From a candidate division BRC1 bacterium HGW-BRC1-1 (lineage in GTDB: Bacteria > Sumerlaeota > Sumerlaeia > Sumerlaeales > Sumerlaeaceae), in contig PHCB01000009.1 of NCBI GenBank assembly GCA_002842095.1, positions 133,468-197,467 on the forward strand: a stretch of DNA of 64,000 bases. Direction: 5' to 3'. Positions 18,478 through 23,302 of the stretch are shown here, piece by piece. The notes below the pieces were generated by a model. That model did not search any database. It was not told where the DNA came from and saw nothing but the letters and a program-made list of their open reading frames with translations. The stretch's first letter is position 1. Every line of letters starts with the position of its first letter. Position numbers and translations under genes: made by a program.

Positions 18478-18554
18478 AGCCAATGCTTTGACACAAAGAC
18501 ACAAAGAAGAGCAAAAGAGGGAAAAGAACCACCGGTAGTTGAATCGGCTTTTGT

Positions 18555-18657: not shown

Positions 18658-20346
18658 TCAAGCGTCCTCATCCACCTCTACACTCAGGAGGTTTTCCACC
18701 GCGCCGCGAGGTGGGGCTGGGCTGTTTATTTGCCAGCCGGTGCGGTGGGCATGCCACATCACCAACGGCAGCAACACGACCCCCATATAAACAGCCAGCA
18801 TCGCCGCCAGGTACCCCGCTTGTTTCGCAAACTTTGCAGGATCATCAACCGCAACAAGGACGGCCACGCCCCCAAGCATCGCCAGCACCAACACCGTCAT
18901 TAATGCTGTCAGGCCCGCCACACGTCTCAAGTCCTTCTCATGCAGGCTCAACCATTGGATGCCATTATAGATAAAATACGTCTCGGCATACAATGCGACC
19001 ATGACAAAGAACAACCACCACGGCCCCGCCCCGGCGGCGGTGGTAGCGAGGGCAACCGCTACGTTTACCCCCACAAGTTGCCGTCCACTCTTACGAAATT
19101 GCTGACGCACCAAAACAGGCCATCGGCCCGGCAGACAGTGCGCCTCAAAACCCGGCGCCTGAACCAGACCCACGGGAATGAAAATCCACAGCAAACCGAA
19201 GCTGCGCACCAGTATTAAAAATCTGTCCCAGGTGAGGTATCCCTCAAAATACATCCCGATCAGAACTCCACAAAAGACCACCAGCATGACAGTTAGCCAG
19301 TGCTTCGCCACAACCGGGCTATCGTTTTCCAACACCGCTTCGGGGGTGGCCCCCTCCATGTAAGACTCATCCCCCTGCTTCAGTTGTTCAAAGGTGGGCG
19401 CTTCGTCGTTTTCCTTCCCGTCGTCTGCGCCCTCGACATCGTCTCTCCGTGCCTGGTCCACCGCACCTATTCGACCGAGATAAGTCGAAGACGGGCGGTC
19501 CGCTTGAAACGCATCGAACTCCGCGGTTTCCAATTCACGGATGGGTGCACGCAGAGTGCGCCACACCGACACCGCAGCGGCCACCGCCCCGGCAACCAAA
19601 ACTCCCTGCAGCGCCAGAGGCATCCACGGTGGAGCATCGCCCAATTGCAACCGCCAGATGGAGCCAATGGGGCTGATGAAGAAGTAAGCAACTTCAGCCA
19701 GAGGATTACTGCCGAGGGGGCGCTCGATGAAAGTTTTCAGCCAGGCACCCGGATAAAACAGCATAACGAGAGCCACGCCGATCAAAAACAAACCGAGACA
19801 ACCAGTACGTTTCACAATCCATAACCATGCATGCCCCATTGCACGCAGAGCGAAAAGGGGAGCATCCCATGGCGCGGGATTGACTTGGTGGTTGATCCCA
19901 AGCAGCACCGCGGTCGCACACGCAATGAAGACCACGATGGCTTGCTCCACCGTCACATTGCCAAAATAAAAGAATCCCCAGGCCAGCGCCGAAGGCAAAA
20001 CAAGCGCATAGAGGGCCCACAAGGCCAAGTTAACGGGACTGAGCCAAATCTGTCGCCGCGGAATAACAGGCAGAACAAGCCAAGTCTGACTGACGAGATC
20101 CGTATTGTTACCACCCAATACACCCACCGCTACCATAAGAACGTACGGCAACAACAACGCGGGGCCATGGGTTAGTGTAAGAACCTTCATTAACGGAATT
20201 GATAATCCGAAGGTCAAAAGACCGCACAGTAAGGCAACCAGGCAATAGATGATAAAGACACCAACCCAGCGCAGTATCATCACTCGCACAGGTAGCCAGC
20301 CCAACTTCTGCGGCTTGCGGCGAGGCTCGACGCGCGGGGCGCTCAC
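18658..20346 (-). CDS. putative ABC-type membrane protein (paralogue of 20559..22250)
   Basis: Polytopic protein sharing blocks with its neighbour (ATYLGRIGAVDQAR vs ATYLGHLGGMDTAR; HCLPGRW; EGATPEAVL vs ENASPEAVM). GTG start at 20346 overlaps the stop of a 33-codon ORF as GTGA. Confidence 0.7.
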   Translation of the reverse strand: MSAPRVEPRRKPQKLGWLPVRVMILRWVGVFIIYCLVALLCGLLTFGLSIPLMKVLTLTHGPALLLPYVLMVAVGVLGGNNTDLVSQTWLVLPVIPRRQIWLSPVNLALWALYALVLPSALAWGFFYFGNVTVEQAIVVFIACATAVLLGINHQVNPAPWDAPLFALRAMGHAWLWIVKRTGCLGLFLIGVALVMLFYPGAWLKTFIERPLGSNPLAEVAYFFISPIGSIWRLQLGDAPPWMPLALQGVLVAGAVAAAVSVWRTLRAPIRELETAEFDAFQADRPSSTYLGRIGAVDQARRDDVEGADDGKENDEAPTFEQLKQGDESYMEGATPEAVLENDSPVVAKHWLTVMLVVFCGVLIGMYFEGYLTWDRFLILVRSFGLLWIFIPVGLVQAPGFEAHCLPGRWPVLVRQQFRKSGRQLVGVNVAVALATTAAGAGPWWLFFVMVALYAETYFIYNGIQWLSLHEKDLRRVAGLTALMTVLVLAMLGGVAVLVAVDDPAKFAKQAGYLAAMLAVYMGVVLLPLVMWHAHRTGWQINSPAPPRGAVENLLSVEVDEDA

Positions 20347-20444
20347 TGCGGTGCGTCCAGTCGGACGAGTTTCGTGCAGGCGCGCATGTCCCCGCACTTG
20401 TGCGAAGTCTTCATCGCCTCAAGAATCATTTCCGCACCAAGCAT
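20343..20444 (-). pseudogene. ABC ATPase relic: 33-codon ORF with N- and C-terminal ends of the neighbouring ATPase
   Basis: MLGAEMILEAMKTSHKCGDMRACTKLVRLDAPQ*: start matches MVSSEVILEAKGISRKF and end matches TRAFMKLAGQDAPE* of the ATPase at 22247..23014. Leader GGAAGGGGaGGTTCATG vs GGAAGGGGcGGTTCATG, and the GTGA overlap, are also shared. Confidence 0.75.
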
Positions 20445-20558
20445 GAACCTCCCCTTCCTTGAATCAGAGGGTTAACTGCCAGAGAAACAGCCTCGACCAA
20501 TTTCCATCTTTGGCTTTTCTTTGTGTCTTTGTGTCAAAGTTTTGGCTTTGGCTTTAGC

Positions 20559-22250
20559 CTACGAGATAAGGGGTTCCTGCGCCTTGTTTGTGCTGCCCGG
20601 TTTAAGCGCGGGAGCGTTCATTTGCCAGCCCGTGAGGCGGCCTTGTCTGAGGCATAGCGGCAGCAAGACTGCGGCGATGTAAACGCCCACCAGAAGCACA
20701 ATACCCATCAAGATTGCCTCAAAAGAGCCGAGTCTTTTATTTTCATTAAGTAAGATCAACACAGCCTCAGCACCCAGAATGCCAATCACCCCCGACGAAA
20801 CCGCGAAGTACCCCTCGGGTCTGTTCAACTTGCTTTCGTGCAGCATCAACCACTTAAACCCCAATGCGATGAGACTCGCTTCTAACAATAAAGCAAAGTA
20901 CACAAAGAAAACCCACCACGACGGGCGAAACACAACCGTAGCCGCCGCCGCAATCGCGATGTGCGCGCCCATCAATTCCCAGCCGGACACTCGCAGTTGT
21001 TCTCGCAACAGGGTCGTCCAGCGGCCTGGTAGACAGTGTGCAAAAGGCATCGGTCGTAAAAATATTAAACATGAGAAACAGCCCCAAATCACATAAGTCT
21101 GGAGCATCACCTGTGCAGCTGACTTCCAGTTAAATCCTTTATCCTGATATTCAAACCAGCCCATAACCCCAGCCATGGCAAGTATCATCAAAATCAACAT
21201 GCGCGTTCGCAGCGGAAACGCGCGAGCCATCACCGCCTCGGGCGAGGCATTCTCCATGTAAGACGTCTTGGTCTTCTTTTCCAGCGCATCCAGTGTCGAG
21301 TCACCCCCGCCGGTGGTTGCGCTCTGCCTGGCATCATCGCCTGAGCCATCTCTCGCAGTGTCCATCCCACCGAGGTGGCCAAGGTAAGTTGCGGCGGGAA
21401 GACCCTTCTGAAACGCTTCGTATTCCGATCGCTCCAGAATCTCCATCGGTTGCCGCAGGGTATGAACGATGGAAAAATAAGCTGCCACTGCTGCTGCCAA
21501 AAGCACACCCGTGAGACCCAGCGCGACCCAGGGGAAATGCCCCGATTCTATCCGCCAAATGGACCCGATGGGGTTGATAAAAAAATACACAACTTCGCCA
21601 AAGGGATGGGTACCCGCTGCGGAGTTGAAAAAGCCCAACTCTACCCGGTTCATGTTAAAAATTAGTACGAACAACCACATAAACGGCACCAAAAGCCTCA
21701 TGGGCTTCTTATTGACCGCCCACTTGAATAGCGGGTAAGCGCCTGAACGCAGACAGAAAAAAGGGATGTCCCATGGGGCGGGTTTCAACATGTGGCTGAG
21801 TGTTAAAAGTGCAGAAGTGACACAGCCCAAACAAACGAAGATAGCTTGCAATAGAGTTAACTGGGCGAAATTATAAAGCGTTAATGAGATTGCAACAAAA
21901 GGAAAACCGATTGCATACGTACCAAGCAAGACCCGGTCATAAGTCCGCGATAATATAAATCTGCGGGGAGAAACAGGAAGAGCCAGCCCTGTTTCCTCAA
22001 GGCGCTGGCGGACCCTGTTAAGATGCCAGATCACAATCAGCGCTGAAAAATACGGAAACATCCCTATAACCTGATCAACCGGCATCAGTTTTCCCAGCGG
22101 TAGAAATAAGACTAATCCCGCATAGAAGAATATTATGCTCCACCCGATCTGGGCGAAGAATTCGCGCAGAACATAGCGTTGCCGGGCCCACTCTTCGACC
22201 CGGTCGAGGAGAAGCAAGTTAGCCCGCTTATCCGACGGAACTGTTCTCAC
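20559..22250 (-). CDS. putative ABC-type membrane protein partnered with the downstream-coordinate ATPase
   Basis: Polytopic protein VRTVPSDKRANLLLLDRVEEW...; GTG at 22250 overlaps the ATPase stop (GTGA). The longer ORF start at 22778 lies inside the ATPase in another frame. Confidence 0.7.
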   Translation of the reverse strand: MRTVPSDKRANLLLLDRVEEWARQRYVLREFFAQIGWSIIFFYAGLVLFLPLGKLMPVDQVIGMFPYFSALIVIWHLNRVRQRLEETGLALPVSPRRFILSRTYDRVLLGTYAIGFPFVAISLTLYNFAQLTLLQAIFVCLGCVTSALLTLSHMLKPAPWDIPFFCLRSGAYPLFKWAVNKKPMRLLVPFMWLFVLIFNMNRVELGFFNSAAGTHPFGEVVYFFINPIGSIWRIESGHFPWVALGLTGVLLAAAVAAYFSIVHTLRQPMEILERSEYEAFQKGLPAATYLGHLGGMDTARDGSGDDARQSATTGGGDSTLDALEKKTKTSYMENASPEAVMARAFPLRTRMLILMILAMAGVMGWFEYQDKGFNWKSAAQVMLQTYVIWGCFSCLIFLRPMPFAHCLPGRWTTLLREQLRVSGWELMGAHIAIAAAATVVFRPSWWVFFVYFALLLEASLIALGFKWLMLHESKLNRPEGYFAVSSGVIGILGAEAVLILLNENKRLGSFEAILMGIVLLVGVYIAAVLLPLCLRQGRLTGWQMNAPALKPGSTNKAQEPLIS

Positions 22251-23014
22251 TCCGGCGCGTCCTGCCCGGCGAGTTTCATGAAGGCGCGGGTGAAGGCGCG
22301 CGGTTCGCCGGGGGAGATTCCCGCCTCGGCGATCAGCGAGTCGGGTTTGTCGCAGAAGCGCACACCGCCTTTGTCGAGGAGCAGCACGCGGTCGGCGGCT
22401 GTTTCGGCCTGGTCGAGCACCTGCGTGGAAAATACCGTGGCAGACCCGTGGCGCTCGGACGCCTCGGCGATCCAGCGGTAGAGCACCTCCATGCCGGCAG
22501 GGTCGATGCCCCACGCGAACGGCTCGTCGAGGATGCGCAGTTCCACCTCGGGCAGAAACGCGGCGATCAGCCCCGCCTTGCGCACCTGACCCAGCGACAG
22601 TTTCTCCCACACGCGCCCGAGCTGCCCCATGTAGTCGAGCTGCGGGCAGAGTTCCTCCAGCCGCGCGTGGAACGTGGCCTTGGGCAGGCCGTAGATCTGC
22701 GCGATAAACCGCAGGTATTCGTAGGGCGTGGCCTGTCCGCCATAGGGAAACGTGACCGGCAGAAAAAACGACCGGCACCGGATGGCAAAATTGTCACGCC
22801 AGCGATGGAGGCCGAACACATGGATGTCGCCCGTGGTGGGGTAGAGCGCGCCCGCCATCATGGTGAGCAGCGTCGTCTTGCCCGCACCGTTCAAGCCGGT
22901 CACGGTAAGCACCTCGCCGGCCCGCAGGTCCAGGTCCATCGGCAACACCGCCTGCGTGCGCCAGAACTTGCGCGAGATACCCTTCGCCTCAAGAATCACT
23001 TCCGAAGAAACCAT
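22247..23014 (-). CDS. ABC transporter ATP-binding protein
   Basis: Walker A GLNGAGKTTLLT, LSLGQVRKAGLIAAFL signature, ELRILDEPFAW Walker B; start MVSSEVILEAKG. Confidence 0.88.
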   Translation of the reverse strand: MVSSEVILEAKGISRKFWRTQAVLPMDLDLRAGEVLTVTGLNGAGKTTLLTMMAGALYPTTGDIHVFGLHRWRDNFAIRCRSFFLPVTFPYGGQATPYEYLRFIAQIYGLPKATFHARLEELCPQLDYMGQLGRVWEKLSLGQVRKAGLIAAFLPEVELRILDEPFAWGIDPAGMEVLYRWIAEASERHGSATVFSTQVLDQAETAADRVLLLDKGGVRFCDKPDSLIAEAGISPGEPRAFTRAFMKLAGQDAPE

Positions 23015-23302
23015 GAACCGCCCCTTCCGTGGGAGAACAAAAAAGCAGAAGCCAAATTTTGACGCAAAGATGCAAAGGACGCAAAGAAAAGCAGAAACAT
23101 GAGTGCCCTGATTGGAGGGCAATTAAGTTTACCCATTCTCTGAAAAGATTTATGTCAAGACATTGGCATGTCCTTTTCACGTTTCCTCGAGGAGGGAGTG
23201 GTTGCGCATACATAGAGAGGCAAAAAAAACGAAAACCTAATCTCACTGCAGAGGCACGGGGTCCAGACGGGAATACAATCTCAGGGCGGGCGTTTTGGAG
23301 GC

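Follow-up and report, generated by a model that had tools for sequence, protein, structure and literature searches.

A 33-codon in-frame remnant of an ABC transporter ATPase overlaps a permease gene in a BRC1 bacterium and may serve as its translational minicistron

A cassette for an ABC transporter in the uncultured candidate division BRC1 bacterium HGW-BRC1-1 contains one intact ATPase gene, two large permease genes, and a second ATPase gene that has been reduced in frame to a stub. The interpretation that we favor, with rather better than even confidence given the arrangement of the genes and their signals, is that the stub is a translated minicistron that feeds a permease with 12 predicted transmembrane (TM) segments by termination-reinitiation. 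Bringing ribosomes to the permease gene would then probably be its sole role.

Organization of the cassette

The window is a stretch of 64,000 nucleotides from contig PHCB01000009.1 (positions 133,468 to 197,467) of a draft assembly that comprises 34 contigs and is 94.76% complete; this single genome carries the locus. On the minus strand the order of genes is ATPase, permease, stub, permease, with the following parts (window coordinates; SD, Shine-Dalgarno).

23015..23032, minus strand: ATPase leader with ribosome binding site, 15/18 identical to the stub leader, with which it is homologous; SD energy, -9.1 kcal/mol
22247..23014, minus strand: intact ABC ATPase, the first gene of the cassette, 255 amino acids; Pfam ABC_tran, 4.4e-16, scored on a translation 7 codons longer at the 5' end
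20559..22250, minus strand: partner permease, 563 amino acids, 12 predicted TM segments; its start overlaps the ATPase stop as GTGA
20445..20462, minus strand: stub leader with ribosome binding site, GGAAGGGGAGGTTC; strong SD, -12.3 kcal/mol
20343..20444, minus strand: ATPase stub, 33 codons, peptide MLGAEMILEAMKTSHKCGDMRACTKLVRLDAPQ followed by a stop; 77/102 nt identical to the ATPase ends, with a single junction near codons 16 to 20
18658..20346, minus strand: orphan permease, 562 amino acids, 12 predicted TM segments; GTG start without an SD

The start of the open reading frame first assigned to the ATPase (22247-23035) is corrected to the ATG at 23014, which gives a gene of 768 nt. Its best NCBIfam match is the DrrA subfamily, far below the cut-off, and its relatives within the class have at most 35% identity. 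GC3 is unequal across the cassette (18658-23014), at 0.85 for the ATPase versus 0.63 and 0.59 for the permeases.

The predicted TM segments of the two permeases lie at matching places, and neither protein matches a Pfam or NCBIfam family. Sequence and profile searches for relatives of the permeases returned none from 38 other genomes of the class, the phylum, about 384 related genomes, GTDB 220 (two scans), or plasmids, apart from marginal matches over short stretches in two of the related genomes (E, 0.003-0.007). Profile matches in the PDB were short stretches in receptor/cytochrome b562 chains and were judged to be due to chance. The predicted structure of the permease has a mean pLDDT of 41.7, too low for use.

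The stub joins the two ends of the ATPase gene

The 33-codon reading frame (20444..20343, minus strand) has the sequence originally quoted for it. At CAGTGAGC, its TGA (20345-20343) overlaps the GTG of the orphan permease (20346-20344), an arrangement characteristic of coupled pairs. When both ATPase ends were placed on the stub with one junction, 77 of 102 bases were identical, which is above the best of 50,000 codon-shuffled stubs (mean, 38.0; standard deviation, 3.9; maximum, 55); furthermore, none of the unrelated 102-mers of the window had more than 54 matches to the ATPase ends. The stub is the best match in the window, after self, for the ATPase 5' arm (-18 to +57; 56/75, with 37 for the next match), for the 3' arm (last 45 nt; 35/45, with 27 for the next), and for the 18-nt leader alone (15/18 versus 13). 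A BLAST search of the whole genome with the stub DNA returned only the stub itself and the 5' end of the ATPase (79% over 66 nt; E = 2.8e-9); the length of the 3' arm is insufficient for a match to pass in such a search.

Approximately 16 to 20 codons of the 5' end and 13 to 17 codons of the 3' end of the ATPase are joined in frame in the stub, and 666 nt, or 222 codons, have been lost between them. Walker A, the signature motif, and Walker B all fall within the missing core and are absent from the stub. Exact deletion breakpoints and microhomology could not be assigned, with junctions from codon 16 to codon 20 scoring nearly equally. The similarity extends from about -18 to the stop codon, and the flanks on either side show no visible relationship. 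The stub has no Pfam match, and BLASTP of its peptide against the ATPase peptide returned nothing, so the evidence for homology is at the DNA level. Overall, the alignment, the arm matches, and the SD energies support the claim of the sequence-only reading that this is an in-frame ATPase remnant that keeps the ribosome binding site, start, stop, and GTGA overlap, and the anatomy of the stub is confirmed.

Duplication history

A single tandem duplication of an ATPase-permease pair had been proposed as the origin of the locus, a proposal that the silent sites do not support as it stands. The two permeases have 35-36% amino acid identity and are near saturation at these sites: agreement at third codon positions is 0.365, versus 0.27 expected from composition, and the same codon is used at 71 of 177 identical residues. 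The stub and the ATPase are nearly unchanged there, with an agreement at third positions of 0.81-0.88 and the same codon at 13 of 14 identical residues (P = 1e-5 at saturation). This comparison of ages rests on 32 codons of the stub; the best 33-codon block of the permease pair reaches 0.67 at third positions. Because the stub is far closer to the ATPase than the permeases are to one another, the two pairs cannot both be accounted for by one old duplication followed by a deletion. Instead, the copies of the ATPase may have been homogenized, for example by gene conversion, or one copy may have come late. Late copying of the leader and ATPase to a position before the permease would be an alternative that needs exact hits on both gene borders. 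Under either history, the deletion is, as judged from the third positions, younger than the permease split.

Within the permease pair, a region near SYMEGATPEAV (residues about 305-370 of the orphan permease) shares the codon at 12 of 16 identical residues, above the remainder of the alignment, and is a possible small conversion tract. In those family genomes where both flanking genes, glnS and nrdJ, were found, they are on separate contigs or approximately 330 kb apart; they are not adjacent, so there is no empty site for comparison.

A dispersed repeat, CTTTGTGTCTTTGTGTC, is found after the orphan permease (18490-18506) and, in the opposite orientation, between the units (20519-20535), and a degenerate version lies upstream of the ATPase at about 23050-23090. 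The genome contains 26 matches to it with no more than one mismatch, versus 0 for a reversed control. The repeat may have taken part in rearrangements.

Constraint on the stub and the orphan permease

The stub and the ATPase differ at 25-27 bases. Codon positions 1 and 2 account for 21 of these differences and position 3 for 4-6, a pattern that gives no indication of selection at the amino acid level; changes that alter the amino acid are no rarer than silent changes. Several of the stub changes (K-G-I-S-R-K-F to M-K-T-S-H-K-C) depart from the usual N-terminal pattern of ABC proteins and are therefore assigned to the stub branch. In neutral simulations, the start, frame, and stop were all kept in 40% of cases with 12 changes and no indels and in about 4% with 25 changes and 15% indels. 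Thus, the open 33-codon frame alone is weak evidence of selection.

The frame of the orphan permease is open over 562 codons. A neutral copy with 0.1-0.15 changes per site, a rate derived from the 102-nt alignment, would hold about 5-7 stops, and only 0-0.75% of simulated neutral copies had none. The length of the open frame suggests that the orphan permease is probably under selection. If the divergence of the stub represents the time since the deletion, then selection has acted on the permease ever since that event, and the permease must be translated. The earlier suggestion that selection keeps the coupling is plausible in the light of the intact permease, although the open frame of the stub is itself compatible with neutrality in 4-40% of simulations. 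Selection on the stub is plausible by this indirect route, in that the intact permease is probably selected and needs the signals that the stub provides. A stronger version, in which the protein function is lost and selection holds the stub only as a ribosome-loading minicistron, preserving its start signal, frame, and overlapping stop, with its core deleted and its remaining codons drifting, is offered tentatively and falls somewhat short of an even chance.

The same data bear on the possibility that the stub is a neutral relic, a young ATPase pseudogene with a frame that is open by chance, preceding a permease that either is decaying or is initiated independently without an SD. The survival of the frame in the simulations with 12-25 changes, the unconstrained peptide, and the presence in the window of genes without a clear SD are all consistent with such a relic. 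We nevertheless consider it unlikely, roughly a one-in-four proposition in our judgment, since a neutral gene would have acquired stops in the open permease frame and the stub has a stronger SD than the ATPase.

Translation signals

Of the four starts, that of the stub has the strongest anti-SD pairing (-12.3 kcal/mol), followed by the ATPase (-9.1), the partner permease, with a modest -6.5, and the GTG of the orphan permease (-3.0). For random sites, the median is -3.5 and the 1% quantile is -12.1. The permease downstream of the stub, at the GTGA overlap, thus has no SD of its own. Strong SDs are not universal among the genes of the window. A sigma-70-like promoter was not found in the region, a result of little weight in this group.

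Other in-frame starts near the N terminus of the orphan permease have SD energies of -5.0 or weaker. One of these is a GTG at 20397, inside the stub; the permease frame is open that far and the SD (-5.0) is slightly better than that at 20346, and its use would make the stub DNA partly permease coding. Such a start is improbable, given that the permease of the intact pair likewise starts at a GTGA and that the distance from the N terminus to the first TM segment is similar in both permeases.

A strong ribosome binding site and a short open reading frame directly before a transporter gene would also fit a regulatory leader peptide, in which translation of the stub acts as a sensor and attenuates the permease, as described for bmrB and bmrCD (PMC4191407). 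However, no terminator-like site, which an attenuation leader would be expected to have, was found in or near the stub, and the stub RNA folds no better than shuffled sequences (z = 0.30). Together with the lack of amino acid constraint, this leaves the earlier suggestion of selection on a leader peptide unsupported, and we regard this form of regulation as highly improbable. Finally, a misjoining of reads from two ATPase copies, conceivable in a draft of this kind, is scarcely credible, because its product would nearly equal the intact copy, whereas 25 of the 102 bases of the stub, as well as its leader, depart from that copy.

Proposed model

In the minicistron interpretation, the locus would once have held two ATPase-permease units. 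The permeases would have split long ago, with the second ATPase copy remaining like the first through gene conversion or later ATPase copying, and this copy would then have lost the 666 nt in frame. Ribosomes would bind the strong SD of the stub, translate it to its end, terminate within the GTGA, and start again at the orphan permease. The stub peptide itself would probably be functionless; the intact ATPase would probably serve the orphan permease as well. Each permease could sit on two copies of this one ATPase; heterodimerization of the permeases is not needed, because each has 12 predicted TM segments.

Comparison with known systems

Of 14 overlapping gene pairs, 13 were strictly coupled in translation (Huber et al. 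2019, PMC6728339), and in Escherichia coli the last 15 nt of the upstream gene are described as sufficient for reinitiation (Huber et al. 2023, PMC10666635). Since so little upstream coding sequence is needed, a 33-codon minicistron would be enough in principle. As in the termination-reinitiation pairs with 4-nt overlaps, for which short upstream 3' parts suffice, the stub has a GTGA overlap and a downstream start without a clear SD. In those pairs the upstream gene is a working one, whereas the upstream partner in this putatively coupled pair is a 33-codon remnant.

The bmrB gene of bmrCD in Bacillus subtilis resembles the stub as a short open reading frame directly before an ABC transporter gene but is presented as a sensor with terminator and antiterminator structures (PMC4191407), none of which were seen at the stub. 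The stub also differs from bmrB in its derivation from an ATPase gene.

ABC exporters with one ATPase gene and two permease genes also exist, for example in lantibiotic immunity operons. The present cluster is similar in having one intact ATPase and two permeases, but its permeases differ from that type: each has 12 predicted TM segments, and neither matches a permease family in Pfam or NCBIfam.

Published descriptions, covered mostly through their abstracts, yielded no example of an ATPase remnant preserved as a minicistron. If the model is correct, the locus would be a natural case that exposes the cost of breaking a coupled pair, in which the upstream protein can be dispensed with but its start, frame, and stop cannot. 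The locus would also suggest a rule for reading operon "pseudogenes," and more cases could be found by looking for remnants, still in frame, whose 3' ends overlap an intact gene by 4 nt. Coupling of the type proposed here is already known; what is unusual is the derivation of the minicistron from an ATPase.
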